Of a stretch of 64,000 nucleotides of DNA, positions 3,901-17,595 are shown one piece after another (position 1 is the stretch's first letter; the number at the start of each line of letters is the position of its first letter). Under the pieces are notes generated by a model, which searched no databases, was not told the origin of the DNA, and saw nothing but the letters and a program-made list of their open reading frames with translations. Origin of the DNA: an uncultured Clostridia bacterium (GTDB lineage: Bacteria; Bacillota; Clostridia; Oscillospirales; Acutalibacteraceae); contig CAMJMQ010000017.1 of the NCBI GenBank assembly GCA_946407065.1, forward strand, positions 1-64,000, read 5' to 3'. The position numbers and the translations under genes were made by a program.

Positions 3901-5613
3901 AACAAGGTCACCAAGAAAGATACCTTCGCTAAGGAAGCTCCCGAAGGCTTCAAGTGGGTTTCCAACGAAGATGGCACTTCTTCTCTCGCTCCGATCCCCT
4001 ATGTTGCTCAGATCGGCAACACCAAGTACGAGACCCTCGAGGCTGCATTCGCTGCAGCTGTAGACGGCGACACCATCACTGTTCTTGCTGACAGCGCAGG
4101 CAATGGTATCCAGGTTCTCAAAAATAAGTTTAAGACCAAAGGTCTGACTGTAGACTTCGACCATCATACCTATACCATGGACGGTGCGACAGTCGGTTCT
4201 CCCGGTACAGCAACACAGGCATTCCAGCTTCAGTATGGCAACAAGATCACCTTCAAGAATGGTACTCTCTATTCCGAAAAGGCGCTCTTCCTTGTTCAGA
4301 ACTACAGCAACCTGACGCTGGACGGCATGACGCTGACCCTGAACAACCCCAACTATGCTTATGGTTACACCCTGTCCAATAACTACGGCAACACCGTAAT
4401 CAAGGACACCACCATCAACGCGAACCCCGCAGGCAAATTCGCATTTGACGTATGCCGTGGCGGCGGTAGCAACGCTTATAAATACGTTCATGTTACCGTT
4501 ACCGACAACAGCGTCATCAACGGCAATGTTGAGGTTGACGCAAGAAACGGCGATCCTAGGGACGGCTTCTCCCTGAATCTGGAGAGCGGCACCCTGAACG
4601 GCGAGATCAAACTGACCGCTAACGCTGAGACTGCTATCGATAATAATCCTGACAACGCTTCTGTCAACAAGAAGAACACCTTCAATCAGGATCCCGCTGC
4701 AGGCTACAAGTGGAAGGACAACGGCGACGGCACCAGCACTCTGGTCAAGATTCCGAAACTCTTCGCTGGTAACGGTCTTGCCCTGCACGGTGATATCGGC
4801 GTGATCTTCTACCTCAATCCTGAAGCGGCAGGTTTCTCTCTCAATCAGGTTAGTAGTGTATCCGTAGACTTTGCTTGCGACAAGTACTCCGGTACTGTCA
4901 CAGAGTTCACGAAGGATGACGCTACAGGCTGCATCAAGGTTGCCTACTATGTTCCCGTTGCGTACATGGCAAGCGACATTATCGCTTCCAATGTTAAGAT
5001 TAACAACTTACCGGCGATTGGTACTGATACCTACAGCGTACAGACATATGCTCTGGATACCATCAACGATCCGAATGCTCCTGCTGCTCGTAAGACCCTG
5101 ATGAAGGAAATGCTCAACTACGGCGCAAAGGCAAAGGCAGTCTTCGAATCTCAGATGGCTAATCCGGAAGATGCTGTGTATGAAGAAATTCCCGATTACA
5201 CCAAGACAACTGTAACTGTTGATATGATCGACGACGCCATCGAGGGTGAAGCTACCGATATGTCCACAGTCACTCCCGAGCCCGGTGCTAAATTCTACGG
5301 ATCCAGCGTAATCTACCTGTCCGAGACCACTCTCAGAATGGTATTTGCAATTCCCGACGGCTCCGGTTCTAAGCTTCCTGAAAACGCCTACACCGGCCAT
5401 CAGGGTAAATGGTACCACTGGGTTGATAAGAAAGATATCCCTGCGGCTCAACTCCATAAACAGCAGACCTTTACAGTTGGCAATGCAACCTTCAACTATT
5501 CCGCACTCGATTATGCTAAGGCGGTGCTGAACAGCAACATGGATCAGGCGAACAAGGATCTTGTATCTGCAATGTACCTCTACAACCAGGCGGCAATCGC
5601 ATGCTTTGCTTGA
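925..5613 (+). CDS. Large secreted repetitive beta-helix-like surface protein
   Basis: Predicted 1562-aa exported protein. The ATG at 925 follows AAAGGAGG and opens a clear signal peptide (MKTIRRPISILLAVLMVVGM...SAGA); an upstream in-frame ATG at 805 would bury it. Residues about 30-230 resemble a beta-sandwich carbohydrate-binding-type segment (YYLAGTMNMWD...). Four modules follow, each opening with YVA(K/Q)IGxxKYETLxxA and rich in NGT/NGG turns, as in right-handed beta-helix surface proteins. Modules 2 and 3 are nearly identical in DNA. A C-terminal domain (about 1277-1562) starting LFAGNGLALHGDIGVIFYL and ending in a DYAKAVLN...AMYLYNQAA helix pair looks like a domain shared by Ruminococcus-type surface proteins. 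No LPXTG or dockerin is visible, so the anchoring is unknown; an adhesin or glycan-binding role is inference. Confidence 0.8.
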   Translation: MKTIRRPISILLAVLMVVGMFTMVPISAGATVYTENEIGEYVTTGDIIHLQGDYIEFETYSVVLKGGTYKVAGSNEVAQSDIQLGEAWSGSGVTVHSDGFRYNGTKYVPVDANGYESGSWLVLDVNNDDGVITFRGMCDYYLAGTMNMWDTNDGTYELAKNPGNTDEYMLLDFAADANTEFKVVSVGEYIAPTNNFTLNEAGTYDIYFRPNGGGNTADGWVDGKVFANNFRPASSATYVAQIGDTKYETLDAAITAAQAGDTVKLLENVTLTEALVIPEGKNFTLDLNGKDITGNVNDKLVQNNGTVVVDDTSAAPGHIYNTNIDKQGNAAFVNYGTATVKNGYFGDKNSDMTDANDVNRGAGFQNQGTAVIDGGYFTACDNFTPAETGNNGYAYAIINYGDITINDATVYGKNNGNLANDAGTMTVNGGNFSLVKGAKKNYYSIYNGSDSANSIVNGGTFTNTTGTALTHTGVGTTELNGGSFTYTKFEQSKTGHPTVSGGTFNKAVPEAYCAEGFIPVTNTDGTYTVDGPYVAKIGTTGYATLADAFAAAVDDDTITVLANSAGNGIKVTPAGKFATNGLTVDFAGHTYTVDGETVGSTGTETNGFQLLKNNKVTFKNGTITSAKAKILVQNYSDLTLEGMTLTLNNPDYTEAYTLSNNNGNIVIDGTTINANPAGGFAFDVCRFSSYPSVHVKVTGESVINGDVEVSASKGQAKDGFSLTLESGSMSGAIVVDASAQALVGEVNKVTKKDTFAKEAPEGFKWVSNEDGTSSLAPIPYVAKIGNAKYETLADAFAAAVDGDTITLLANCAGNGIKVTPAGKFATGLTVDFAGFTYTVDGETVGSTGTETNGFQLLKNNKVTFKNGTITSAKAKILVQNYSDLTLEGMTLTLNNPDYTEAYTLSNNNGNIVIDGTTINANPAGGFAFDVCRFSSYPSVHVKVTGESVINGDVEVSASKGQAKDGFSLTLESGSMSGAIVVDASAQALVGEVNKVTKKDTFAKEAPEGFKWVSNEDGTSSLAPIPYVAQIGNTKYETLEAAFAAAVDGDTITVLADSAGNGIQVLKNKFKTKGLTVDFDHHTYTMDGATVGSPGTATQAFQLQYGNKITFKNGTLYSEKALFLVQNYSNLTLDGMTLTLNNPNYAYGYTLSNNYGNTVIKDTTINANPAGKFAFDVCRGGGSNAYKYVHVTVTDNSVINGNVEVDARNGDPRDGFSLNLESGTLNGEIKLTANAETAIDNNPDNASVNKKNTFNQDPAAGYKWKDNGDGTSTLVKIPKLFAGNGLALHGDIGVIFYLNPEAAGFSLNQVSSVSVDFACDKYSGTVTEFTKDDATGCIKVAYYVPVAYMASDIIASNVKINNLPAIGTDTYSVQTYALDTINDPNAPAARKTLMKEMLNYGAKAKAVFESQMANPEDAVYEEIPDYTKTTVTVDMIDDAIEGEATDMSTVTPEPGAKFYGSSVIYLSETTLRMVFAIPDGSGSKLPENAYTGHQGKWYHWVDKKDIPAAQLHKQQTFTVGNATFNYSALDYAKAVLNSNMDQANKDLVSAMYLYNQAAIACFA
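2521..3996 (+). repeat. Two tandem 738-bp coding repeats, about 560 bp almost identical
   Basis: The DNA from 2701 to about 3258 recurs at 3439-3996 with one difference that I found (a silent T/C in GAGACCAAT versus GAGACCAAC). The period is 738 bp, 246 codons. The flanking module starts differ more, and the third copy (about 3997-4740) is clearly diverged, so the middle pair reflects recent duplication or gene conversion. Confidence 0.9.
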
Positions 5614-5635: not shown

Positions 5636-5794
5636 ATGAAGAAAGAAACCTATGAGCGTCTGTATATGGACGTGACTGAGTTCGATGCGGAGGATGTTAT
5701 TACCACTTCGGAAGAAACTATGCCCGACTTGATTTATGATGATAACCAAGGCGGCGCCGCAGGCGGAGTCGGATTCTTTGCCCCCGGTACGTAA
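5636..5794 (+). CDS. 52-aa acidic peptide with EDVITTS motif, possible RiPP-like precursor
   Basis: Starts 22 bases after the large surface gene, with AGGAAAGG upstream of the ATG. The peptide begins MKKETYERLYMDVTEFDAED, continues VITTSEE and ends in a glycine-rich tail (GGAAGGVGFFAPGT). It has no signal peptide or membrane segment. Short proteins of the form YE(R/K)PxLxVxEFDxEDVITTS are, as I recall, common and uncharacterised in Ruminococcaceae. A PqqD-like protein, the family that binds leader peptides of ribosomally made modified peptides, is encoded about 270 bases downstream, so a leader-plus-core precursor is a reasonable but unproven reading. No maturase is visible nearby. Confidence 0.6.
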   Translation: MKKETYERLYMDVTEFDAEDVITTSEETMPDLIYDDNQGGAAGGVGFFAPGT

Positions 5795-5864
5795 TCCTAC
5801 TGTTGATCAGAATAGTCTGATCGCAGATCGTACATCGAATAACGTAGAATAACAATGTTTATCT

Positions 5865-5901
5865 CGCCGCCGCTTTGAGTGTAGCGCTTGAAGCGGCGGC
5901 G
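5865..5901. terminator. Strong GC hairpin after the peptide gene
   Basis: CGCCGCCGCTT pairs perfectly with AAGCGGCGGCG across a 15-base loop. There is no T-run after it, so it may act as a partial terminator or RNA-stabilising hairpin between the peptide gene and the PqqD-like gene. Confidence 0.5.
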
Positions 5902-5937
5902 CAGATGATATACCGATATTCAATGAGAATCAGACAC

Positions 5938-5992
5938 AGGGCTTCCCCTCGGGGGGAAGCTGTCAGCGAAAGCTGACTGATGAGGGGCGGGC
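5938..5992. repeat. Palindromic intergenic repeat
   Basis: GGCTTCCCC/GGGGGAAGC inverted repeat followed by CTGTCAGCGAAAGCTGACTG and ATGAGGGGCGGG. It is the same architecture as the units near 680, 52490 and 54600: a flanking palindrome, an inner hairpin, then a GAGGG tail. Confidence 0.6.
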
Positions 5993-6066
5993 GTTTCCGC
6001 AATCACCCCGAGCTCATCCACCCACCCTGATTTTTATTGAATATCAGTATAAAGGATGTGCAAAAT

Positions 6067-6327
6067 TTGAAACTGAACGACAATTTTATCCGTCATGACG
6101 TCGACGGACAGACCCTGATCGTCCCCACCGGCAGCGCGGATTTTCACGGCTTGATCCAAGGGAACAAGACCCTCTCCGCAATCACCGAGTGCCTGACGCA
6201 GGATACGACAGAGGACAAGATCGTCGATGCCCTTTGCGCCCGTTTCGACGGCAGCAGAGAGGATATCAAAGCCGATGTGCATGAAGCGATCAAAAAGCTC
6301 AAAGCGATCGGCGCAATCGATGAATGA
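6067..6327 (+). CDS. PqqD-family protein (RiPP recognition element-like)
   Basis: 86-aa cytoplasmic protein. The TTG at 6067 sits 10 bases after AAAGGA and gives the typical family opening (MKLNDNFIRHDVDGQ); upstream GTG/TTG codons would add an unrelated extension. The core (LIVPTGSADFHGLIQGNKT...TAITECL-like helix, TTEDKIVDALCARFDG..., helix ending AIGAIDE) matches the PqqD winged-helix pattern, which binds precursor peptides and presents them to a modifying enzyme. It lies between a small EDVITTS peptide gene and a membrane protein gene. No radical-SAM, YcaO or protease gene is found in the window, so any partner enzyme must lie elsewhere, or this PqqD serves another function. Confidence 0.75.
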   Translation: MKLNDNFIRHDVDGQTLIVPTGSADFHGLIQGNKTLSAITECLTQDTTEDKIVDALCARFDGSREDIKADVHEAIKKLKAIGAIDE

Positions 6328-6362
6328 TCGCCACAATTATTACGAAGTAAGAAGGAATCATC

Positions 6363-7043
6363 ATGAGAGAATCACTTTTATACAACGATAAATTTCAGCT
6401 TTTCATCCGATTGTTAACTACGTTGTCATTTGGTTTGTACACGGCCTACCAGATTTACTTAACCGTAGTGATCGAAGCGAGCAGATACGGCAGAATGGTA
6501 ACGGATATCATTATGCTGGTGCTCACCATCAGCTCGATCTTGATGTTCTTTGACAACCGTAAAGCCGCTACCGCCCGCACGATACTGTTTGTGCTCGGTA
6601 TGCTGTTGCTGATCTTTGTCAAGATGATCAACATACCCTTCCTGTTCGGTAATCTGGATCCTTCCGAGCCTGTTTCCGTGATGAACTGCGCTGTGTTTGT
6701 GCTGTCTGAGCTCGGCGCGATCGGCTTGCTCGTCTATTACATCACCCTCATGAGCAGCAGCGAATTCCGCAAAAAGCAGGTGCTCCGTGTTGTATTGTCG
6801 CTTATCATTGCCGCGTTTTACCTCGCATGCCTGATCATGGAGCTGATTATGATCACAAAATACGGCGCGAATATCGACACAAGCCGTAAGCTCACCATCC
6901 TCAGCCGCTTCCTGTATTTCTTCGGCTTCGGCGGCACGGCGATCTGCCTGATGCTCCCCGCTCTGATGGTTGAGGTAGAGCACAAGCCGGGTGAATTTGT
7001 CTATTCGGAAGAAGATGACGACGAGATCGATTTAGTGATGTAG
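6363..7043 (+). CDS. Integral membrane protein, about six helices, function unknown
   Basis: 226 aa with hydrophobic segments at roughly 13-36, 45-62, 71-95, 105-129, 140-163 and 182-204, then a short acidic tail (SEEDDDEIDLVM). No family recognised. It follows the PqqD-like gene by 35 bases with GGAATCAT upstream of the ATG, so the two are probably co-transcribed. In the context of a peptide plus PqqD it could be an export or immunity component, but nothing in the sequence proves this. Confidence 0.7.
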   Translation: MRESLLYNDKFQLFIRLLTTLSFGLYTAYQIYLTVVIEASRYGRMVTDIIMLVLTISSILMFFDNRKAATARTILFVLGMLLLIFVKMINIPFLFGNLDPSEPVSVMNCAVFVLSELGAIGLLVYYITLMSSSEFRKKQVLRVVLSLIIAAFYLACLIMELIMITKYGANIDTSRKLTILSRFLYFFGFGGTAICLMLPALMVEVEHKPGEFVYSEEDDDEIDLVM

Positions 7044-7237
7044 GCGAAAAGGTAGGGGAGAGCTCCGCTCTTAAGTTAAGAAAGGCTCCGCGATCCTCAG
7101 GGAGCTGTCAGCGAGATACATTTTCTTGGCTTATGGCATTAGATTTGCTCCTCCCGCCGACAGATGCCGTGGGCAACGCCCACCGTCTCCGCCTTAAGAT
7201 AAGAAATAAAGAACAAGATTTTTTAGGAGGTACTGTA
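7044..7237. repeat. Partial intergenic repeat and leader of the dockerin gene
   Basis: Contains a degraded copy of the dispersed palindromic repeat (CTCCGCGATCCTCAGGGAGCTGTCAGCGAGATACA) and pieces such as CTCCCGCCGACAGATGCCGTGGGCAACGCCC. The downstream ribosome site is AGGAGG at 7225-7230. Confidence 0.4.
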
Positions 7238-7570
7238 ATGAAAAAAATCTGTGCTGTTATTTTAGCCGTATTATGTGTATTGTCTGTGATGAGCATGAGC
7301 CTTTCGGCATCTGCCATTACTATGTGGCGCCGTGGTGACGCTGATGCTGACGATGAAGTCACGATCACGGACGCGACTGTGATCCAGAGAAAGCTCGCTT
7401 TCATGGAAGTTGAAGAATTCAGGTCACAAGCCGCCGACGTTGATAAATCCGGTGAGGTGGATATCAGCGACGCGACATGGATCCAGCGTTTTCTCGCTCA
7501 ACAGGGTAATCCCAATAAAATTGACGAATTGTTCGATCCGTATGAATTACCCTTCATTCCCAAAAACTAA
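7238..7570 (+). CDS. Small secreted protein made of a type I dockerin-like module
   Basis: 110 aa. The ATG follows AGGAGGTACTGTA and opens a signal peptide (MKKICAVILAVLCVLSVMSM, cleavage near SASA). The mature part is almost entirely one dockerin-like pair of calcium-binding repeats: GDADADDEVTITDATVIQRK (about 33-52) and AADVDKSGEVDISDATWIQR (about 65-84). Dockerins bind cohesins and attach proteins to cell-surface or cellulosome-like scaffolds. There is no catalytic domain, so it may be an adaptor. The C-terminus YELPFIPKN matches the end of the next protein (YEMPFIPAK), an unusual shared tail. Confidence 0.8.
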   Translation: MKKICAVILAVLCVLSVMSMSLSASAITMWRRGDADADDEVTITDATVIQRKLAFMEVEEFRSQAADVDKSGEVDISDATWIQRFLAQQGNPNKIDELFDPYELPFIPKN

Positions 7571-7598
7571 TTAGCTCTCACTGAACTACGGAGGAATT

Positions 7599-8096
7599 AT
7601 GATAAAAAGAATCAGCTTGCTTTTGTTGGCGCTTTTGCTGAGCGTTTGTATGTTGACCGCCTGCGGCAAGAAACAAAAGGAAGAAGCTACGCCGGATACC
7701 GCATCGACCGCGGATACGGCAGAAACCAAGGCGACCGAGGCAAAATCCGAAAAAGCGACCCAATCCGGTCAGGACGCGGATGACAAAAAATCGGACGATG
7801 ATAAGAAATCCGACGACAAATCCTCGTCCTCCGCTCAAAGCAACAAACAATCGAACGATCAGGACGCGCAAACCGGCGGTCAGTCTAATGACATCGATAC
7901 CGGCTCCGATACCGGATCCGACAACAGCGGTTCCGATTCGGGGAGCGACGGCTCCTCTCAGTCGATGAACGACGGTGCACAGGACGGTTCATCCTCTAAG
8001 GGTGATTCCTCCAAGGGTGCTTCATCTAAATCGGAGCATTCGGCACCGTCATATGTCCCCGATGAATATGAAATGCCGTTCATTCCGGCGAAGTGA
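7599..8096 (+). CDS. Ser/Asp-rich lipoprotein with shared C-terminal PFIP motif
   Basis: 165 aa. Lipoprotein signal with lipobox LTAC (Cys about 22), then a highly charged low-complexity region rich in Lys, Asp, Ser, Gln and Gly (SDTGSDNSGSDSGSDG type) that is presumably disordered and spans the wall. It ends VPDEYEMPFIPAK, nearly the same as the tail of the dockerin protein 28 bases upstream, so the two are likely co-transcribed and may share a binding partner. A good ribosome site (GGAGG) precedes the ATG; a strong terminator follows. Function unknown. Confidence 0.75.
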   Translation: MIKRISLLLLALLLSVCMLTACGKKQKEEATPDTASTADTAETKATEAKSEKATQSGQDADDKKSDDDKKSDDKSSSSAQSNKQSNDQDAQTGGQSNDIDTGSDTGSDNSGSDSGSDGSSQSMNDGAQDGSSSKGDSSKGASSKSEHSAPSYVPDEYEMPFIPAK

Positions 8097-8120
8097 TTTT
8101 AGAAAGATCAATATGTGAGA

Positions 8121-8158
8121 ACAGCCTATAGCTGAAAATAGCTATAGGCTGTTTTTTT
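8121..8158 (+). terminator. Rho-independent terminator
   Basis: ACAGCCTATAGCT, GAAAAT loop region, AGCTATAGGCTGT, then seven T. It ends the dockerin/lipoprotein operon. Confidence 0.9.
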
Positions 8159-8179: not shown

Positions 8180-8815
8180 CATGTAGGAGTGGAGGCTCGA
8201 AAACGTGTGTCAAACAGCCGACCCCTACAAATCCTCTGCAACGTCTCTTGTAGGGCGGGGGTGCTCCCCGTTGGGGAGATGTCACGAAGTGACAGTGGGA
8301 GATTCCCCTGTTAGGGGAAATGTCCGCAAAGCGGACAAAAGGGTTGCCGTTCTCGCTGAGAGAAAGACGTCTCCGCCGAGGCTTGCTCCCGCCGAAACGT
8401 CTGTCAAGATGACATTATAATGCGAAGCAATTGAAACGCCCTACCGCGGGTCGTCGAGGGCGCCGACCCCTACAAATATATTGCAACGTCTACTGTAGGG
8501 GACGGCGCCTCGACGTCCCGAACCTATCCGCTAAATCTTACCCAACCGCGAAGCAGATCAAACGCCCTACCGCGGGAGCAGCAAGCCGCTCCCCTACAAA
8601 TCCACCGCAACGTCTATCGTAGGGCGGGGGTGCTCCCCGTTGGGGAGACGTCACGAAGTGACAGTGGGAAATTCCCCTGTTAGGGGAAATGTCCGCAAAG
8701 CGGACAAAAGGGTTGCCGTTCTCGCTTAGAGAAAGGCGTCTCCGCCGAGGAATGCTCCCGCCGAAATAGCAACTGAAAATTGAAAACTGAAGAATGAAGA
8801 TAGAAAAATACAAAA
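8180..8815. repeat. Block of dispersed intergenic repeats with two long copies
   Basis: Two copies of about 135 bp (about 8265-8400 and 8637-8770) share GTTGGGGAGA(T/C)GTCACGAAG, TGACAGTGGGA, ATTCCCCTGTTAGGGGAAAT, GTCCGCAAAGCGGAC and CGTCTCCGCCGAGG. Between them are CCCTACCGCGGG and TGTAGGGG(A)CGGCGCCTCGACG units. A related copy is at 52490-52620. The copies contain several small hairpins and no plausible gene. Confidence 0.8.
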
Positions 8816-9135: not shown

Positions 9136-9168
9136 TGAAAAAAGACGATATCAAAAGATATCGTCTTC
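9136..9168 (-). terminator. Rho-independent terminator of the recombinase operon
   Basis: AAGACGATATC, AAAA loop, GATATCGTCTT, with a run of A on the far side that becomes a T-run on the minus strand. The stem overlaps the stop codon of the recombinase gene. Confidence 0.85.
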
Positions 9169-10633
9169 ATTCATATGGTGGAGCAGAGGCAAGCAAATCC
9201 GAACTTTTGCTCAGTTCCTCTAAAGTCAATGTCCTTGCACCCTCGTTATAGTTAAAATAGAATTCAATTCTGTCATCATACAGTATAACAGAATTTACAA
9301 AACTGTCAACCAATCTTTTCCTTTGTTTGATCCTATCGGTATCGATATTTCTGAAGCGGTGCAGCCAGAATAGAATCTGTTCCTTAGTCAGAACAGGCTT
9401 TTTGATGTTTTCTTTTGCTATTTCAATCTGTAAATCTTGTTTTTGCTGTTCCAATTCTTCGAATCGGGTTTTGGTTGTCGGCGTGATAATTCCTTGTTCA
9501 ATCGCCGTCAGAAGATTACCCAAACTCTTTTCAGTTTCTGCTAATTGCTTCTTCAATAGAATCAAGGTATTACTTTCCTGATCTTGCAGACGATACACTC
9601 TGTCAGCAATCGCTTCGATCAAAGCATCATCAAAAACAACTCTCTTAACTTGCTTTATTACGATATCCTCAATCCAATCTTTTTTGACCGCCTTTTTATC
9701 GCAGCCATTCTTTCGCTTGGCGGTAATACACTTATAGTAGCGATAGGTGGTTTCATTACGACTGGTACCGCTTTCGCCCACCATAAAAGACATACATTTA
9801 CCGCAGTAGAGTTTGGTAGTAAGGATGTAATCAGCGTCTGCTTTGTATCTGGCAGGCGCTTTCTTGTTTTTCTTTATCTGCTGTTGGACACGCTCAAACA
9901 GATCCTTATCAACTATGGCGGGGATACCGTCAGGAATAACAATATCTCGGTATTTGTATTCGCCTATATATCTTCGATTAGAGAGTATATTGGATATCGT
10001 GTTGATTGTGAACTCTGTTCCTCGTGAATTCTTTACGCCTTTACGTTTAAATTCTGCGGCAATCTCTTTCATCGTGAAGCCTTCATCATACATTTGAAAT
10101 GCAATACAAACGTAAGGCGCCAAATCCGTATTGATTTGAAAATGATGATTATTATCAATTGTGAAACCGAAAGGAATAGTGCCTCCATTGAATTTACAGT
10201 TGTAAGCATTCTCAGTTTGACCTCTAATTACCTTTTCTGCAAGTTCTGCAGAATAATACTCAGCCATTCCCTCAAGCATTGCTTCGAGTAAAATGCCCTC
10301 TGGGTTTTCTGAAATCGCTTCAGTGGCGGAGATTACTCTGACTCCGTTTTGTTTCAAAATCATCTTATACTTTGCTGAATCAAAGCGGTTTCGCGCAAAT
10401 CGGTCAAGCTTCCAAACTATGATAACCTCAAATTCTTTTTTAGCGCTATCCTTAATCATGCGCTGAAAATCCGGACGGTTGTCAGTCTTTGCAGTCATAG
10501 CTCGATCAATATAAGTATCGATTATCTGAATCCCCTGTCGATCCGCATATGCTCTGCATTCGCGGATCTGTCCGTCAATGCTTTCCTCGCGTTGATTGTC
10601 AGAGGAGTATCTGGCGTAGATTATACCTTTCAA
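9167..10633 (-). CDS. Large serine recombinase (site-specific integrase/resolvase family)
   Basis: 488 aa. The N-terminal resolvase domain starts MKGIIYARYSSDNQ with the catalytic serine in YARYSSDNQ (about residue 10) and carries WKLDRFARNRFDS, which holds the conserved arginines. The middle 'recombinase' domain runs about 150-260 (ending NRRYIGEYKYRD). A zinc ribbon with CGKC and later CITAKRKNGC is at about 288-325, followed by a coiled coil and a C-terminal tail. These enzymes integrate and excise elements between short att sites. It is the last gene of a leftward operon with a reverse transcriptase and an excisionase-like protein and lies near one edge of the mobile region, so it is the likely integrase of the element. 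Confidence 0.92.
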   Translation of the reverse strand: MKGIIYARYSSDNQREESIDGQIRECRAYADRQGIQIIDTYIDRAMTAKTDNRPDFQRMIKDSAKKEFEVIIVWKLDRFARNRFDSAKYKMILKQNGVRVISATEAISENPEGILLEAMLEGMAEYYSAELAEKVIRGQTENAYNCKFNGGTIPFGFTIDNNHHFQINTDLAPYVCIAFQMYDEGFTMKEIAAEFKRKGVKNSRGTEFTINTISNILSNRRYIGEYKYRDIVIPDGIPAIVDKDLFERVQQQIKKNKKAPARYKADADYILTTKLYCGKCMSFMVGESGTSRNETTYRYYKCITAKRKNGCDKKAVKKDWIEDIVIKQVKRVVFDDALIEAIADRVYRLQDQESNTLILLKKQLAETEKSLGNLLTAIEQGIITPTTKTRFEELEQQKQDLQIEIAKENIKKPVLTKEQILFWLHRFRNIDTDRIKQRKRLVDSFVNSVILYDDRIEFYFNYNEGARTLTLEELSKSSDLLASAPPYE

Positions 10634-10653
10634 AACAACCTCCTAAAAGAGAA

Positions 10654-12204
10654 TTATCTACTTACATAAAAACTAAAATGATTATGCTTAAGCCTGTTAT
10701 AAAATGCGATATTTTGTTTTATCCCACTATTTCTTGAAAAACAATCTTCATCAATATAATCATGGAAATATAATTGATAGTATAGAATCCAAGAATTAGC
10801 CTTTGCGATCATTTGTCTTTTCGCTTTTTCTGTTAGTTTGTTATTATACTCTTCTAGTAATACTATTTTTGCTAAGTCATTGTTGCACATCGTTATTGCA
10901 TTTGTAATCTCGGATTTCAAGTATTTTTTTGTTAACTTAAACCTTAGATATATGAGCCATACAGCTTCTAGACTATTATCATTATCAATGTGATATTTGA
11001 TTTGCTTTTCAATTCTATTAATATCTTCTTGCGTAGTGATAAACGAACGTTTATGAGAAATAATCAATTCACATACTTTTACTAACGATCTGCTATCATT
11101 TGCCAAAATATCGTATAGATAGCTTAAAAAGATAGGTCTGTTAGTAATTGTTACGTTGTTATTAAGTGCTTTTACTAAAAACCTAATTGCTCCTTTAGTA
11201 CCATTTTCTTCTAATCTAAAAAAGCAATTAAAGAGTGCCATGATTTGTTGTTCAGACATCGGACGCGTTAGATGTTTAGTAACAATAGCTTCCAAATTGT
11301 CTATAACATAGTATGGAAAACCAATATACTTCGTTTTTTCATTATTAATTGATAAGTAGTATTTTCTAAAAATATTTGTAATTGTGTTCTGAGTCCTTTG
11401 TAATTCTTCTTCGTTATATATAAAGATTTCATAATCATCAACATACCTTACAAAGCGAATACCCTCTCGTTCGATTTCTTCATCAATTCTAGCAAAAAGA
11501 GCTTCTGAAATAAAACGCGATATTGAAATACCGGTTAACAAACCATTAGTCCTATCACCATTCATACATCTAATAGTTTTATCAAATTCTTGATATAAAG
11601 GATATGAAGCTGGAATTGCTGGATCACTTTGATTTGCTTTGAACAACTTGTATGCTTGCATAGTCCTTTCAAAACCAAGGTCAATACATGGCAATAAATG
11701 AGTGTATATGCTTTGATAACAATTTGAAATATCCAATTGAAGAATTCCCTTTGCTCCGCGCGCTCTGTTAATCTTGTCAATCACATTAGGAACATAGGTT
11801 GAAATAAAAGCGTTTTGATCGCCATCTGTTAATGTAACCCCTAAACCATAGGCACTTTCATGCCGTGTGAGTTCACCGTTTTTGTTTATTAATGGCGAAT
11901 AAGAATGAGTATCGACAGATTTCTCGATTAGCTTTCTAATCAAATCTTTATCTTTCATATATTTAACAACTTTTATGTATGAACAGAATTCAGGAATATA
12001 AATGATTCTCCTTTTTCCGTCTTCTGTAAAACGGCTCATATTAAAAGAATATGGTTCAACTAAATCGTTTTTGTCTCGAATCGAAAATGATAAAAAATCA
12101 ACTTCTTTTGATAGCTTAAATGAAGGCGGTAGATATTCAGAGAAAAAGCCCTCATATATGAATTCGTCAATTATTTTTGACATATTTGCTTCACTAATAT
12201 TCAT
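10654..12204 (-). CDS. Reverse transcriptase of the Abi/UG defence type
   Basis: 516 aa. RT motif A is LQLDISNCYQSIYTHLLPC (catalytic Asp about 158), a motif-B-like segment is NGLLTGISISRFISEALFAR, and motif C is FVRYVDDYEIF (YVDD about 254-257). The segment after about 330 is alpha-helical with no recognised catalytic domain, as in AbiA/AbiK and other UG reverse transcriptases that provide phage resistance. There is no X/maturase or HNH domain as in group II introns, and no room upstream for a retron RNA because an HTH gene lies 14 bases away. Lower GC than the flanking chromosome suggests transfer. Class within the UG/DRT groups cannot be assigned by eye. Confidence 0.8.
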   Translation of the reverse strand: MNISEANMSKIIDEFIYEGFFSEYLPPSFKLSKEVDFLSFSIRDKNDLVEPYSFNMSRFTEDGKRRIIYIPEFCSYIKVVKYMKDKDLIRKLIEKSVDTHSYSPLINKNGELTRHESAYGLGVTLTDGDQNAFISTYVPNVIDKINRARGAKGILQLDISNCYQSIYTHLLPCIDLGFERTMQAYKLFKANQSDPAIPASYPLYQEFDKTIRCMNGDRTNGLLTGISISRFISEALFARIDEEIEREGIRFVRYVDDYEIFIYNEEELQRTQNTITNIFRKYYLSINNEKTKYIGFPYYVIDNLEAIVTKHLTRPMSEQQIMALFNCFFRLEENGTKGAIRFLVKALNNNVTITNRPIFLSYLYDILANDSRSLVKVCELIISHKRSFITTQEDINRIEKQIKYHIDNDNSLEAVWLIYLRFKLTKKYLKSEITNAITMCNNDLAKIVLLEEYNNKLTEKAKRQMIAKANSWILYYQLYFHDYIDEDCFSRNSGIKQNIAFYNRLKHNHFSFYVSR

Positions 12205-12218
12205 GCGTGTAACCCCTT

Positions 12219-12407
12219 TTATAATTCACTTGATTTTCCACTTTTAATCCATTCATCTATTTCAGAAATTTTAAATTTCCAGTTTTTACCGACCTTATGT
12301 GCCGGCATATCTTTTGTTGCAATCCACCTAAGTACTGAATCTCTACTCACACCAAGATATTGCAGTATTTCAGGCATAGAGTAATAACGATCCTCAATTT
12401 CTTTCAT
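12219..12407 (-). CDS. Excisionase-like helix-turn-helix protein
   Basis: 62 aa from the ATG at 12407, which follows AGAGGTGG; a GTG nine bases upstream is less well placed. It has the HTH_17/Xis pattern YYSMPEILQYLGVSRDSVLR, then WI..DMPAHKVGKNWKFKISEIDEWI, typical of small excisionases and of DNA-binding regulators. It is the first gene of the operon with the reverse transcriptase and the serine recombinase. It may set the direction of recombination or regulate the operon. Confidence 0.8.
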   Translation of the reverse strand: MKEIEDRYYSMPEILQYLGVSRDSVLRWIATKDMPAHKVGKNWKFKISEIDEWIKSGKSSEL

Positions 12408-12427
12408 AAAAACCACCTCTGGTTACC

Positions 12428-12583: not shown

Positions 12584-15289
12584 ATGAGATTGATTTCAGC
12601 ACAGGAAGCAGCCAACAAATGGGGTATCACAAAAAGAAGAGTATTAACATTGTGCGCAACGAACAGAATTAAAGACGCCGAGCTTGTCGGTAATATTTGG
12701 GTATTACCGGCTGATGCAGAGAAACCTGAAGACGCTCGTATTAAACAACCTCTTGAATCAGATGATAGGGCTACTATAAAATCAGCGAGAAATTCACTAA
12801 AAAATGTTTGCCAATCTTCGATAAGAGTTTTACTTAGTAAAGGCTATACATTTTATGAAGCACGTAAAGTTTTTCTTGCGACCCTTTCAAAAGAGCTTTA
12901 TTCTCATTTTGCTAATAGTTCGAGTGAAATCCATATTCCTGACATCGGTCAATATTTTTTAGATTTCTTTGAGAGTGAAGGTTTACTTGGCACTTCAATC
13001 AGTATTGTTGGGAAAATCAAGAGTTATCTTTGTGAGTTTCAATCTTATTGTGAAGATGCTTTATCCTGGAGTTATCAATACATTAATTCTTTAGATAAAT
13101 TTGCTCCCTATGCGAGTACGCAGTTCTTTACAGAACGATATATGATCCATACGCTTCTTGATGCTTTGGAATTACACAAACAAAATAAAGTATTGGATCC
13201 CGCTTGCGGAGGCGGGAATTTTCTCGTGCTTTGTTTTGAGAAGATGATGAAAGAGTACTCAAAAGAGGAGTTATCTTTACAAGAAACAATTAAAAATGTA
13301 TTATTAAAGCTATATGGATATGATATCGATCCTTTGCTCGCAAAGGTTGCTTATATTAATCTAAAGCTTAAGATTATTTCTTTATATTCACAGAATAATC
13401 AGAGTATTACATTTAAAGAGTTTACTGAAATACATCCAAACATTTTTTATCCGTTGCACTCAACTGTATCAGGTGCATTGGATAAAGAGCCTGAAAAGCA
13501 GATCGTTGTAAAGGTTGGGGATAAAAAGAGATATAGTCTTGACTCAGTTTTTTATGAGACAGATACTATATTAACTAACCCTCCTTTTCAAACCGTAAAA
13601 GGAATGCCTGAGGACCTGAAAAACTTCTTGAAGAAATATTATCCAAGCTCTAAATGTGATATGTGCAATGCTTTTATCGAGTTTTCTTCTAACCTTGTTG
13701 CACAAGGCGGAAACGTCGGACTTGTCACACAGAATAGTTGGATGTATTTAGATAGTTTCTCGGATCTCAGAAAAACTCTTTTATCCTCAACAAGAATAGA
13801 AAAGATATGGGAATTAGGAGCCAACGCTTTCTATGATATCAGCGGTGAAAAAACAAATGTTGCGTTATTACGTTTTACAAAAGAAACACCTTCAGAGAAA
13901 GATACAATGGTTCTTTACTCCCTTAATCATCTACAGCAAAAGCATATAGAACAGCTGCTTCAAATGCAGCAGGCAGATAAATACTCTGTAACCGTGTTGC
14001 AGAAAGAGATAACAGGTAGCCGTTTTGATATGGTCAGCACCGAACACTTAAAAGTTATCCTTAACGACAGCAAACCATACAAAGAGTTTGCTACTCCAAT
14101 GCAAGGCACCTCAACGGGTAACTCAAAGGAGTTAATAGGGTTCTTTTGGGAACATCAAACCGATAAGGATTGGGTTATGGTAAGCAAAGGAGGAGGTTAT
14201 GAGCGTTGGCAGGGCTTGAATCATTATTCGGTAAAATGGGGAAACGATGGAGAATACATTAAAGCGACTAAAGGTTCTGCAATCAGAAATGCTGCATATT
14301 TTGAAGATACTCAATTAGTGTTCAGCGATACCGGTACCGCAGGTCTGAATGTAAGGTTATTAATGCCGAATCAGATATTTGTGGCATCTGGTCCGGGAAT
14401 ACGAATCTCAGAAGGTAAACCGCTGGCGCATTTAGCATTTTTGAATTCCCGTTTTGCATCATATTTTATCCGCTTGCTGACTCCAAAGCTCACGATAGCT
14501 GCAGGATATATCGCTAAATTGCCGGTACTCAAATCTCTGCTTTTTTCTGACACACTGGAGAATTATGCAAAACAAATACTCAAAGCAAAACGCAATCGTC
14601 TTAGTAAACGTGCTTGCAATTATGAATTTGAACCATTAAGAATATCAGATCTACTCCCACCGATTTCACAGACTGCATCGGAATGGTTTAGAGAAGATAT
14701 CGAAGATGAATGGTTGCAGCTTCAGTTTGAGGAAAGAATAGAAAAAGAGATTTCAGAAGCTTTTGGATTGACGTCAGAAGATACGTTTGCTATGGAACGA
14801 AAAATCGGTCACAAATCTATTTATGCTAACGAATCAGAAAAGGAAACCGTCTTAGAAATAGATAAAACATTATTAATAGTATTAAATTCGAACTGCAATA
14901 TAAAAAGAACGAAGCACAAAAAAGAAGAATTAGGCTGTGACGGAATAATTGAGTATCTGTCTCAAGCAACCGAAGTCTCTTGTCAAACAATTTACAATAC
15001 TCTGATCGGTTCAGATGCACAAAGCAGTAAGGTTATGAATAAATACAAAGATATGTATTTGCATTCTTTATTGTTGAGTGCTTTAGGTGTTCACGGAAAT
15101 CGTGTTGAATGCATTTCTGTTGAAAAGCTAAAAGAAATACATTTTGCATCTGAAGCTGATAGTAATACTTTTCTAACATGGATAAGAAATGATTTTAACG
15201 AAGTTCATTTTGATTCTTTATTCAAAAAGCCGGTGTATTACTATGATGAACTTTCCGATACTGTCAAATTGACGGAGAAACAAGTATGA
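12584..15289 (+). CDS. N6-adenine DNA methylase with N-terminal HTH domain
   Basis: 901 aa. Residues 1-55 are a helix-turn-helix domain (SAQEAANKWGITKRRVLTLC...VGNIWVLPADAEKP) of the kind usually found as a separate small protein. The methylase core has SAM motif I VLDPACGGGNF (203-213), a GYDIDP acidic loop (245-250) and catalytic NPPF (332-335), as in Eco57I-type enzymes. The C-terminal part (about 480-700) with AASGPGIRIS-type and GYIAKLPVL segments looks like a target-recognition region. It overlaps the next methylase gene by 4 bases. With the convergent PLD nuclease it forms a likely restriction-modification system. The fused HTH and palindromic promoter suggest self-regulation. Confidence 0.85.
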   Translation: MRLISAQEAANKWGITKRRVLTLCATNRIKDAELVGNIWVLPADAEKPEDARIKQPLESDDRATIKSARNSLKNVCQSSIRVLLSKGYTFYEARKVFLATLSKELYSHFANSSSEIHIPDIGQYFLDFFESEGLLGTSISIVGKIKSYLCEFQSYCEDALSWSYQYINSLDKFAPYASTQFFTERYMIHTLLDALELHKQNKVLDPACGGGNFLVLCFEKMMKEYSKEELSLQETIKNVLLKLYGYDIDPLLAKVAYINLKLKIISLYSQNNQSITFKEFTEIHPNIFYPLHSTVSGALDKEPEKQIVVKVGDKKRYSLDSVFYETDTILTNPPFQTVKGMPEDLKNFLKKYYPSSKCDMCNAFIEFSSNLVAQGGNVGLVTQNSWMYLDSFSDLRKTLLSSTRIEKIWELGANAFYDISGEKTNVALLRFTKETPSEKDTMVLYSLNHLQQKHIEQLLQMQQADKYSVTVLQKEITGSRFDMVSTEHLKVILNDSKPYKEFATPMQGTSTGNSKELIGFFWEHQTDKDWVMVSKGGGYERWQGLNHYSVKWGNDGEYIKATKGSAIRNAAYFEDTQLVFSDTGTAGLNVRLLMPNQIFVASGPGIRISEGKPLAHLAFLNSRFASYFIRLLTPKLTIAAGYIAKLPVLKSLLFSDTLENYAKQILKAKRNRLSKRACNYEFEPLRISDLLPPISQTASEWFREDIEDEWLQLQFEERIEKEISEAFGLTSEDTFAMERKIGHKSIYANESEKETVLEIDKTLLIVLNSNCNIKRTKHKKEELGCDGIIEYLSQATEVSCQTIYNTLIGSDAQSSKVMNKYKDMYLHSLLLSALGVHGNRVECISVEKLKEIHFASEADSNTFLTWIRNDFNEVHFDSLFKKPVYYYDELSDTVKLTEKQV

Positions 15290-17595
15290 AAGAAATCATT
15301 AGTATTATTGCTAATCAGTTGCTGAAAGGCATCAAAAACAAATATGGAGATAACTGCGAAAAAGTCACTGAGGTTAAGATATTTTGGTTTTATCAAAAGT
15401 ATCTGCTTTTTTCGATTGCTAATTCTAAAAGGTTGTTTGGCAAGGATAGTACGACTCTAATTCTTCTTACTAAAATGGCTGAATTCAAGTTAATCCCAAG
15501 CGGAATGATTGACTTTTATCTTTCAAATACCGATATCATTGATAACTTGATCGAAAGCAGTTCTCAACTATATGATTGTGATGATAATGAATTAGCCGAT
15601 TGTTATGAGAATCTGCTTAATATTGAACTTGCTTTGTCTAAAGATTCTATTTCCTTACAAATCGGAAAAAGTTCCCGAGATGCAACAGGTTCCTATTACA
15701 CTCCCAAAGATTTAGCATATGTGACTGCAAAAAAAGCATTGAATAGCATTTGCAACAGTACTGATTATTCTGACTTTCGAATTGCCGATTTGTCTTGCGG
15801 CTGCGGAGAGTTTTTTGAAGCATGCTATACAATTCTGAGCGAAGATAAAAAACTAACCCCCGAAACAATCGTTACCATGTTTAGGGGGATTGATGTCGAT
15901 CCTATCGCCTTGCAAATATGTATTTGCAGATTAATAAAAAAAGTTCAATTATCTGAGTGGGAAAGCATCATCAGCAATTTCAGGTTAGGAAATCCTTTGA
16001 TCTATACAAATAACGAGATTGGATTTATGGAGAGAATCAATTTGTTTGCCTTAGGCAGATTGTATGCTCCTCAAATGGGAATAGATATTGTTGAGGACGA
16101 TGCTTTTCGCAATATCGATTTAGTAATCGGAAATCCTCCTTGGGAAAAAATCAGATTTGAGGAGAGAAAGTTTTTCGCTCACATCTGTCCTGAAATAGCG
16201 GCGATCACAAAAAAGGACAGCAGGCAAAAAGCAATTAATGATCTGGAAAAGACATGGACTGATTTGTATTATTGGTCTCAGGACGTCCAGAACGATTATT
16301 CATTAATGACAGCAAAAACTTACCGTCATCCATTAATTCAGTTATCTGCTTGCGGCGAGTTAAATACATATGCTCTCTTTACCGAGTTGGCTAATAATCT
16401 GCTTTCAAAAAAAGGGATTTCGTCATTAGTATTGAAAAGCTCAATCGTTACCTCTCCTGTAAACAAGCCATTATTCTCGTTCTATTTAAATAACGGGCAA
16501 GTAAAGGAAATAAGCTTGTTCGAGAATAAAAGCAAGATCTTCAATATAGATTCAAGAGAAAGGTTTTGTGTTCTCACTACTTCCAAAGAGGAAAATCCGA
16601 GGTTTTCTTTTTCTGCCGGTCTTACAACAGTTGACGAGTATTTGGCGGATGATTTCATTACAGTTGAGCCGCAGGATATTAAGCTGATTAATCCATCCAC
16701 AGGAATGATACCTAATGTCAATAATACACGTCATATCTCATTCTTAATTCATGCGCACCGTCGGTTACCCGTCTTCGATTCTGTTTTTCCGGATTGTCAC
16801 TTTGGGCGATTAATTCATTTAACAGCTCATGCAAAGTATATTGATAGAACAGAATCCTCTGAGAATCTTCCTGTTTATGAAGGTAAGTTTTTGGAACAGT
16901 ATAACGCAAGATTCTCAACATTCGAGGGTATGTCAGAAGAAAAAAAGTATTCTGCAAAAGCTTCTGCAATAAAGAATCATGCATCAAATGATTGTCCTCC
17001 GTTTCCTCAAAGCAGATTCTTTGTTCATAAGTCTCTTTGGAATAAGTATTTGCAGCAATACCCATCGAAGTATTCTCTCTGCTGGAGAAGCTTAACATCG
17101 CCGACAAACTACAGAACGATGATTGCCATGATTCTGAATACCCAGCCGACCTGTCAATCGGTTCAAATGCTGCAAACCCGGGATTATCAAGAGTTAGTTT
17201 TGTTATTAGGTTTGTTCAATTCAAAACCGTTTGATTACTTTGTGAGATTGAAAATGCCCGGCTTAGATCTAACGCAGTCTGTTATACGGCAAATACCTGT
17301 TCCTTCCCAAGATGACTTTGACCGCGTATTAGATTATCGTGGAAATCATTGCGCAATAAAAAAGCATATTTTATCATATGTAGCATATCTTTTATCAAAG
17401 GAACCTACATTAGAAGATCTAATTGCTGAGATTAAGGCGAATGTATATCCTGTACCAAACAATATCAGCTTTTGTGCAGCCAGACAGTATATTGATGAAC
17501 TCTTTTTAAATGCTTACGGATTCAGCGAAAGAGAAAGCACTTATATTTTGAATAGCTTTTCATCTAAAAACACTCAGGGATGTCACGATGAATGA
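15286..17595 (+). CDS. Second N6-adenine DNA methylase
   Basis: 769 aa, ATGA-coupled to the preceding methylase. Residues about 136-140 (SYYTP) mark the entry to the methylase domain; SAM motif I is IADLSCGCGEF (about 166-176), followed by GIDVDP (201-206) and catalytic NPPW (283-286). The C-terminal half includes segments resembling specificity regions (RFFVHKSLWNKY, GLFNSKPFDYFVRLKMPGLDLTQSVIRQIPVP). Two different methylases in one system fit an asymmetric recognition site in which each strand needs its own enzyme, as in BfiI- and NgoFVII-type systems with PLD nucleases. It ends in a terminator shared with the convergent nuclease gene. Confidence 0.85.
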   Translation: MKEIISIIANQLLKGIKNKYGDNCEKVTEVKIFWFYQKYLLFSIANSKRLFGKDSTTLILLTKMAEFKLIPSGMIDFYLSNTDIIDNLIESSSQLYDCDDNELADCYENLLNIELALSKDSISLQIGKSSRDATGSYYTPKDLAYVTAKKALNSICNSTDYSDFRIADLSCGCGEFFEACYTILSEDKKLTPETIVTMFRGIDVDPIALQICICRLIKKVQLSEWESIISNFRLGNPLIYTNNEIGFMERINLFALGRLYAPQMGIDIVEDDAFRNIDLVIGNPPWEKIRFEERKFFAHICPEIAAITKKDSRQKAINDLEKTWTDLYYWSQDVQNDYSLMTAKTYRHPLIQLSACGELNTYALFTELANNLLSKKGISSLVLKSSIVTSPVNKPLFSFYLNNGQVKEISLFENKSKIFNIDSRERFCVLTTSKEENPRFSFSAGLTTVDEYLADDFITVEPQDIKLINPSTGMIPNVNNTRHISFLIHAHRRLPVFDSVFPDCHFGRLIHLTAHAKYIDRTESSENLPVYEGKFLEQYNARFSTFEGMSEEKKYSAKASAIKNHASNDCPPFPQSRFFVHKSLWNKYLQQYPSKYSLCWRSLTSPTNYRTMIAMILNTQPTCQSVQMLQTRDYQELVLLLGLFNSKPFDYFVRLKMPGLDLTQSVIRQIPVPSQDDFDRVLDYRGNHCAIKKHILSYVAYLLSKEPTLEDLIAEIKANVYPVPNNISFCAARQYIDELFLNAYGFSERESTYILNSFSSKNTQGCHDE

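Follow-up and report, generated by a model that had tools for sequence, protein, structure and literature searches.

The closest described counterparts of the locus presented here are the Linear Polyphosphorylated Peptides (LPP; PMC13381572, Nat Commun 20 May 2026). In that paper, LPP genes encode a recognition element for ribosomally synthesized and post-translationally modified peptides (RiPPs; RiPP recognition element, RRE; LppB), a SpI-like peptidase (LppS), an HprK-like kinase (LppK), an NTP transferase (LppN) and the MsbA-like LppD. The leader follows the pattern YxxPxVLxHQxIxFETxxS, the precursor is cut after T-1, Ser3 is polyphosphorylated, and the biological role is stated as unknown. 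We analysed a stretch of 64,000 bases (the window; bases 1-64000 of contig C17, which has 65,881 bases) from an uncultured Clostridia bacterium with a genome of 2.71 Mb in 56 contigs. Between positions 5636 and 8096 it carries genes for a 52-aa peptide with the string EDVITTS, a PqqD-family RRE, a six-helix membrane protein (TM6), a dockerin protein and a lipoprotein, directly behind the gene of a large exported surface protein whose C-terminal domain we call surfC. On balance we consider it probable that these genes belong to an LPP-like RiPP system which is coupled to the surface protein and acts partly in trans. Judged by its genes, it would be a variant of a peptide-modification family published in 2026, and we infer its modification and function. 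The original prediction for this DNA, made from the letters alone, knew of no described system with this composition; that statement falls with the LPP family, in which RRE, SpI, NTP transferase, HprK-like kinase and ABC (ATP-binding cassette) exporter occur.

The product of 6067-6327 matches PF05402 with an E-value of 1.9e-9 (38.1 bits, cut-off 23.4), which upholds its earlier assignment to the PqqD/RRE family. Its start was set at TTG 6067 (86 aa) because most of the listed homologues have 86 aa and align to the query from there onwards. Among PDB entries the RRE profile finds two lasso B1 proteins, TbiB1 (5v1u, E 7.3e-7) and TfuB1 (6jx3, E 0.0072). N33 and D70 are invariant in 12 aligned RREs and align with an N and a D of TfuB1. 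In LppB the residues N33 and D70 fix the leader (PMC13381572); LppB lies outside our alignment, and the correspondence is one of equal numbering, checked through TfuB1.

Scanning the RRE profile against one genome per species (84,980 species) gave 75 loci. Their titles point to Ruminococcus or to other Clostridia and Bacillota, and many come from ruminants. One fragment (L186) was dropped, leaving 74 loci of named genomes for the counts; L numbers denote loci, G numbers genomes and C numbers contigs of the window's own genome. Linkage was counted with our own profiles; for the S26 peptidase and for NTP_transf_5 the families of the seed proteins had been confirmed by Pfam. An EDVITTS peptide lies within 3 kb upstream of the RRE on the same strand in 33 of the 74 loci, and TM6 is found in 22 of 66; the linkage is real. 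For co-occurrence we used 148 related genomes, 90 of them of the same genus. RRE (E<=1e-12) and peptide are both present in 38 of the 148, RRE only in 3, peptide only in 29 and neither in 78; the corresponding numbers within the genus are 37, 3, 22 and 28 (p 1.2e-6, kinship uncorrected). Most relatives are metagenome-assembled genomes with broken contigs, where absences are soft.

The processing genes known from LPP are found beside the RRE in many of these relatives. In 43 of 72 loci an S26 peptidase gene lies at most 1.5 kb downstream, and in 42 of these it overlaps the RRE stop; Ser24, His62 and Asp77 are invariant in all nine aligned S26 proteins, including those from contigs C14 and C10 of the window's own genome. 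In 31 of 66 loci an NTP_transf_5-like gene is no more than 4 kb away from the RRE (in L122 as a 141-aa open reading frame (ORF) only; 30 of 65 if ORFs below 250 aa are dropped under a slightly different room rule), and at least one of the two enzymes is present in 48 of 66. In L067 a single ORF combines S24/S26 (E 1.3e-5) and NTP_transf_5 (E 2.2e-41). A full run, in G037 (L259), reads surface protein, peptide, dockerin ending VDLPFIPAN, lipoprotein ending VELPFVPAE, P-loop kinase-like protein, RRE, S26 and NTP_transf_5. A shorter version is found in G107, which belongs to another family of the order, with surfC, a YxxP-type peptide, a lipoprotein ending VELPFVPFD, a P-loop kinase-like protein, RRE and S26. 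L167, L172 and L182 show P-loop kinase-like protein, RRE, S26, a protein of 565-582 aa and an NTP_transf_5-like protein; in L167, the one locus scanned for it, Pfam identifies the protein of 565-582 aa as an ABC exporter. Upstream of the RRE, G037, G039, G107 and deeper loci encode P-loop proteins of 243-264 aa, which in the deeper loci adjoin it; among the close loci inspected, no HprK-like kinase was found next to the RRE. The label 'HprK-like' is our deduction from the P-loop SGTGKST, the gene position and the gene set of the LPP paper.

On contig C17 there is no match to the radical-SAM (S-adenosylmethionine), NTP_transf_5 or lasso-B2 families, in line with the earlier remark that a maturase is missing. 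Elsewhere in the same genome, contig C14 carries RRE-S26-CotH and contig C10 RRE-S26-kinase-like-ABC, two NTP_transf_5 genes lie on C1 and a P-loop kinase-like gene on C4. Kinase-like genes occur in 103 of the 148 genomes, and the C4 copy therefore need not belong to this system. We favour action partly in trans because processing genes stand in the operons of many syntenic relatives, open copies exist elsewhere in the genome and the RRE is under purifying selection; the earlier suggestion of an enzyme in trans fits these data. Ten loci have TM6 but neither S26 nor NTP_transf_5 (the window, L112, L113, L114, L118, L119, L121, L124, L125, L130), and in five of them (the window, L112, L113, L114, L121) an RRE-S26 pair is found on another contig of the same genome.

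That both enzymes are missing in the window and in nine other TM6 loci could also mean that the operon is decaying, having lost peptidase and nucleotidyltransferase, with the RRE as a leftover. The RRE itself argues otherwise, with a ratio of nonsynonymous to synonymous substitution (dN/dS) of about 0.04 towards L112 (dN 0.005, dS 0.133) and about 0.12 towards L114 (dN 0.14, dS 1.16); these low values indicate that it is kept by selection despite the absence of an enzyme from its operon. The same arrangement is moreover kept in the window, L112 and L114, with the ORFs for TM6, dockerin and lipoprotein open, and we regard decay as distinctly improbable.

Two of the RRE-S26 loci in the window's own genome deserve separate mention. 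In L005 (9652-12029, contig C14) the RRE and the S26 peptidase are followed by an exported CotH-kinase protein with a dockerin (CotH E 1.4e-34; BLAST identity of 68% and 60% in the matching stretches L102 and L091), and the trio adjoins an alpha/beta hydrolase gene. It is also found in L154 and L164, and L155, L157, L159 and L180 have a protein of similar size at that place; an exported kinase encoded next to an RRE could be relevant to phosphorylation. L006 (6665-16405, contig C10) carries RRE, S26, the kinase-like gene and the ABC exporter, divergent from the gene of a 1944-aa protein, and no precursor was recognised among the small ORFs of this cassette.

PqqD proteins were originally expected to work with a radical-SAM or another RiPP enzyme, and a radical-SAM or lasso-type maturase could act on the peptide in trans. 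The genome does hold 22 radical-SAM matches; in the 25 of 70 NCBIfam families listed for them, the RiPP types with strong hits comprise a SCIFF maturase and a single ACGX-system radical SAM/SPASM protein. None of the 22 is on contig C17, there is no radical-SAM match within 10 kb of the seven EDVITTS peptides of this genome, and the window's peptide contains no Cys; the expected partner was thus not recovered. A lasso peptide is likewise unlikely: PF13471 (B2) has 0 matches in the genome, where the cyclase family PF00733 was not searched, and the ring-forming acceptor seems to be missing in the peptide cores at what we take to be its position. Taken together, we give such a maturase hardly any credence.

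The peptide itself, predicted with a glycine-rich tail, is present at the expected place and ends in GGVGFFAPGT. Thirty chosen peptides align as MxKExYERLxLDVTEFDxEDVITTSG followed by a free C-terminus, with D20, I22 and S25 invariant. No NCBIfam model fits them (best E 0.049, in one of the 30 members), and in Pfam the window's peptide has no match at E<=1. The profile of the 30 peptides drew at least 3807 proteins at E<=10 among the best 5000 candidates; by this number the family looks large. In the 148 genomes a match at E<=0.001 is found in 67, with a maximum of 11 per genome. In 70 peptides examined by position, a Tyr with a hydrophobic residue at +5 is kept in 59 and a Ser just past the leader in 64. 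The cores carry the motif [EDN][LMIV]P in 31 of 70 cases against 8.4 in shuffled cores, and 0 of 5000 shuffles reach 31 (kinship uncorrected); the core of the window's own peptide has no such ELP-type motif.

The peptide is tied to surface proteins. Its ORF in the window starts 22 bp past the stop of the surface-protein gene, with a AGGAAAGGA stretch before its ATG. For 41 of 60 distinct peptides, the stop of an ORF of 100 aa or more lies within 30 bp upstream, and 32 of these 41 proteins contain surfC. A count of 36 of 39 surfC genes with a peptide is biased, the loci having been fetched by RRE or peptide, and the fair test starts from surfC only. For this test we compared the C-terminal 285 aa of the surface protein in the window with the 148 genomes, of which 41 gave a match at E<=1e-8. 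Thirty loci, one per genome, were read out of about 100 listed matches in these 41 genomes; two lacked room, and in the 28 with at least 200 bp behind the gene an EDVITTS peptide lies 11-23 bp past the stop in 24, the loci without it being L277, L285, L288 and L289. Over the 148 genomes, peptide and surfC are both present in 40, peptide only in 27, surfC only in 1 and neither in 80; for the 90 genomes of the same genus the numbers are 40, 19, 1 and 30 (kinship uncorrected). Of 30 surfC members, 29 match nothing in Pfam at E<=0.001, and the PDB gives no match to the domain below E 0.07.

In the window's own genome, peptide genes also stand behind large exported proteins without an adjacent RRE, on C31 and in three copies on C20. 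At the C20 locus (L111) three large surface proteins are arranged in tandem, and behind each of them stands the same 48-aa EDVITTS peptide. A second kind of peptide, with cores ending in WF or similar, makes up 10 of the 60 distinct peptides by pattern (L150, L184, L202, L208, L212 and L214, with similar peptides in L110, on contig C4 of the own genome, and in L138, L175 and L203). In six of these ten the upstream ORF (124-288 aa) ends in GWG..F.P, no such ORF being found in the other four, and TM6-like genes are near the peptide in L138, L150, L175, L184 and L110. The kind of core seems to follow the kind of partner protein.

These ties would also be expected if the leader guided processing without any modification, that is, if RRE and S26 only cut and released the peptide as a small subunit or chaperone of the surface protein, and kinase and nucleotidyltransferase served other substrates. 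The C31 and C20 copies without a neighbouring RRE, the peptide behind 24 of 28 surfC genes and the cores that vary with the upstream protein (the six cases of WF cores with GWG..F.P proteins) would suit such a role. It is harder to reconcile with the NTP_transf_5-like genes beside 31 of 66 RREs and their fusion to the peptidase in L067, with the P-loop kinase-like genes directly before the RRE in deeper relatives, and with the Ser past the leader in 64 of 70 peptides. We therefore think this explanation unlikely, and continue with an LPP-like system that includes modification.

The gap of 272 bp between peptide and RRE holds a strong hairpin. The combination CGCCGCCG...CGGCGGCG has a single occurrence in the window, against an expectation of 0.00, and the whole genome contains it at one site. 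A CGCCGCCG-type hairpin is present in 15 of 17 chosen peptide-RRE gaps, L139 and L140 having another hairpin, and the fetched loci contain 27 distinct hairpin strings, some of which represent one site on opposite strands. Pairing amounts to 93.3% of 374 cells compared with 34-57% when slid, the outer 8 pairs being fixed by the search pattern. Column shuffles were not beaten (143 of 500 reach the paired percentage, 46 of 500 the covariation score); the hairpin recurs, and covariation is not claimed. Since it has no T-run, we take it as a possible processing or attenuation element.

As had been described from the sequence, TM6 is a six-helix membrane protein, with six long helices in the AlphaFold model (mean predicted local distance difference test score, pLDDT, 83.9). 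Pfam gives no family over the cut-off for it, and an assignment by fold was abandoned, 0 of 287 Foldseek matches reaching E<=0.001.

The window's dockerin and lipoprotein share a tail YE[LM]PFIP, in agreement with the two exported proteins of common tail in the original prediction. In the genome 33 PFIP-coding matches are listed (10 for a control pattern); 31 were inspected, those on C35 and C37 being left out, and among these PFIP is near a credible ORF end only in the dockerin, the lipoprotein and the C31 EDVITTS peptide. In the remaining terminal matches no more than 49 codons precede PFIP. For the RRE loci we took ORFs of 85-320 aa no further than 6 kb from the RRE and required [EDN][LMIVF]P[FVLI] in the last ten residues. 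Such tails end 45 of 551 ORFs on the RRE strand against 3 of 677 on the other strand. Stricter filters on export, length and motif left three two-tail loci only, and the final count was made without an export filter, with the opposite strand as control. In the 14 two-tail loci the tail classes are identical in 10 (FI/FI, VV/VV, LV/LV; permutation p 7.5e-5) and the first residue agrees in 13 (p 1.4e-4); these permutations ignore kinship, and shared descent may explain part of the match.

The tail was earlier suggested to be what the PqqD protein handles, so that the RRE would serve the ELPFIP-type C-terminal tags of dockerin and lipoprotein instead of or besides the peptide. The tail is real, its clustering on the RRE strand and the agreement within two-tail loci suit the suggestion without showing any handling by the RRE. 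The proteins that carry the tail resemble Sec or lipoprotein cargo, for which export would take a different path, and RREs of this type bind N-terminal leaders in the described case (PMC13381572). Furthermore, at least one tail is present in only 31 of the 75 loci, the window included, a few of the 45 look accidental (L135 and L166 among these loci), the permutation ignores relatedness, and in L119 a dockerin-like ORF with YELPFIPA is one of the three on the opposite strand. We hold this role of the RRE to be very unlikely.

At this point we want to note what weighs against an LPP-like system acting partly in trans. The window operon lacks peptidase, nucleotidyltransferase, kinase and exporter, and for L118, L119, L124, L125 and L130 no RRE-S26 pair was found elsewhere among the loci fetched. 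In 41 of 74 RRE loci no peptide lies within 3 kb, some of them at contig ends, and 29 of 148 genomes have the peptide without a close RRE. The leader is mostly without the YxxP proline of LPP and lasso leaders, YxxP being present in 2 of 70 peptides. The kinase-like proteins match no Pfam family at E<=0.01 and have no PDB relative; the kinase-like gene on C10 (L006, 8423-9094) has no P-loop and was not counted as a kinase. Finally, deletion of the NTP transferase brought no change in the heterologous host of the LPP study (PMC13381572).

The coordinates of the operon are collected in Table 1.

Table 1. Features of the operon, in positions of the window.
Feature	Position	Strand	Remarks
Large exported surface protein, 1562 aa	925..5613	+	ATG 925; from the ORF list with a check of ribosome binding site and start
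surfC, uncharacterised C-terminal domain, last 285 aa of the surface protein	4756-5613	+	
EDVITTS peptide, 52 aa, putative RiPP precursor	5636..5794	+	leader-like residues ~1-25, variable core
GC-rich hairpin behind the peptide gene	5865..5901	+	recurs in relatives, without T-run
PqqD-family RRE, 86 aa	6067..6327	+	TTG start; PF05402
Six-helix membrane protein TM6, 226 aa, no family found	6363..7043	+	acidic tail ending EIDLVM
Exported dockerin protein ending DPYELPFIPKN	7238..7570	+	PF00404 E 2.8e-8
Lipoprotein with low-complexity Ser/Asp/Lys stalk, ending DEYEMPFIPAK	7599..8096	+	lipobox read from sequence
Stem-loop and seven T, likely end of the transcription unit	8123..8150	+	-17.2 kcal/mol over 8111-8150

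A gap of 194 bp separates the TM6 gene from the dockerin gene, and Pfam gives no second domain over the cut-off for the dockerin protein. The final stem-loop was found by direct folding and is not among the hits of a separate scan. A GC-rich intergenic repeat lies at 5930-6000, and similar stretches seem, by eye, to recur at about 8190-8760; as a known RNA the repeat was rejected, whalefall-1 being best with 18.7 bits against a gathering score of 37. Further downstream, 9167-12416 (minus strand) encodes in a row a serine recombinase (Pfam), a reverse transcriptase with RT_UG31 as closest PADLOC model (E 1.8e-118) and, read by eye, a 65-aa excisionase-like helix-turn-helix protein; it is a candidate for a defence-associated reverse transcriptase (DRT) gene carried with a recombinase. 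Two adjoining methyltransferase-like genes at 12584-17595 (plus strand), PglX or type IIG-like by PADLOC, possibly form a restriction-modification unit.

For the LPP-like system we propose the following course. Surface protein and peptide would likely be made from one message, probably by translational coupling, the hairpin separating the downstream genes. The RRE likely binds the N-terminal leader of the peptide (Y6, the hydrophobic position 11 and the following strand), like LppB and lasso B1, and a SipW/S26-type peptidase from contig C14 or C10 would then likely cut near the ITTS junction. Ser25 could plausibly be the likeliest site for an HprK-like kinase (the P-loop copy on C4), followed by the NTP_transf_5 enzymes (the two on C1), and the core may plausibly exit by the ABC exporter on C10 or otherwise. 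Outside, we conjecture, the core would act together with the surface protein made alongside it, and the tail of ELP type that is also present on dockerin and lipoprotein might be a common docking motif.

A further-reaching idea, which we put forward tentatively and hold to be rather doubtful, is that the mature RiPP core is a working part of the cell-surface assembly. Each surfC protein would have its own co-made peptide, and the C-terminal ELP[FVL] tag on the processed peptide, on the dockerin (for cohesin scaffolds) and on the lipid-anchored stalk would lead to one receptor or crosslinker, perhaps TM6 or surfC. If true, the RiPP would belong to a tagging system for surface architecture and not be an antimicrobial. 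Here, LPP-like precursors are individually linked to exported proteins of a recognisable class, and also to two exported proteins with matching tails, which gives a testable lead that such peptides may serve the cell surface. A further suggestion from the locus is that an RRE can function at a distance from its enzymes; if so, RiPP mining based on clusters would miss such systems.

Gene order, most of the families, the linkage and the conservation are established at the level of sequence. In the literature covered, with most subscription journals and all preprints outside it, we found no paper on this arrangement, on the EDVITTS string or on PF14907, and PMC12710340 contains none of the six terms looked for in it. 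Cellulosomal dockerin-cohesin systems are alike in the dockerin protein of the operon and in three cohesin matches in the genome; unlike them, the dockerin protein has no other Pfam domain over the cut-off, and its C-terminal tail recurs on a lipoprotein and on peptides. With PQQ and radical-SAM/SPASM RiPP systems the locus shares the PqqD fold and its leader-binding role, but it has no linked radical-SAM enzyme, and the PqqD model of PQQ reaches 18.5 bits against a cut-off of 46. Paeninodin-type lasso systems, as far as the consulted parts of PMC7533575 and PMC13381572 go, have a B1-type RRE and kinase and nucleotidyltransferase partners as well; here, in contrast, the own genome has no B2 match (PF13471, 0) and an S26 peptidase takes that place.

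LPP comes closest. Common to both are the discrete PqqD-fold RRE with N33 and D70, which is in the window; the S26-like peptidase with Ser/His/Asp, the NTP transferase, the P-loop kinase-like protein and the ABC exporter, which are in some relatives' operons or elsewhere in the genome; short precursors with conserved N-terminus, variable C-terminus and a Ser just past the leader; and the lack of a detectable lasso B2 protein. Unlike LPP, the window operon has no SpI/S26-like peptidase, NTP transferase, HprK-like kinase or MsbA-like ABC exporter, and the EDVITTS leader mostly fails the YxxPx[VL] motif. The precursor is tied to a large surface protein, a fusion of peptidase and nucleotidyltransferase exists, the hosts are Clostridia, and TM6, tailed dockerin, tailed lipoprotein and hairpin are added. 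The main text of PMC13381572 contains no mention of Clostridia, Ruminococc, Oscillospir, Lachnospir, dockerin or S-layer; measured against the parts consulted, the surfC linkage, the ELP motif, the hairpin and the leader mostly without YxxP are additions to that paper. The invariant Ser25 is compatible with a polyphosphorylated product, nothing more. As far as its genes allow a judgement, the system would work like LPP, and we place it beside this family without filing it as a member.

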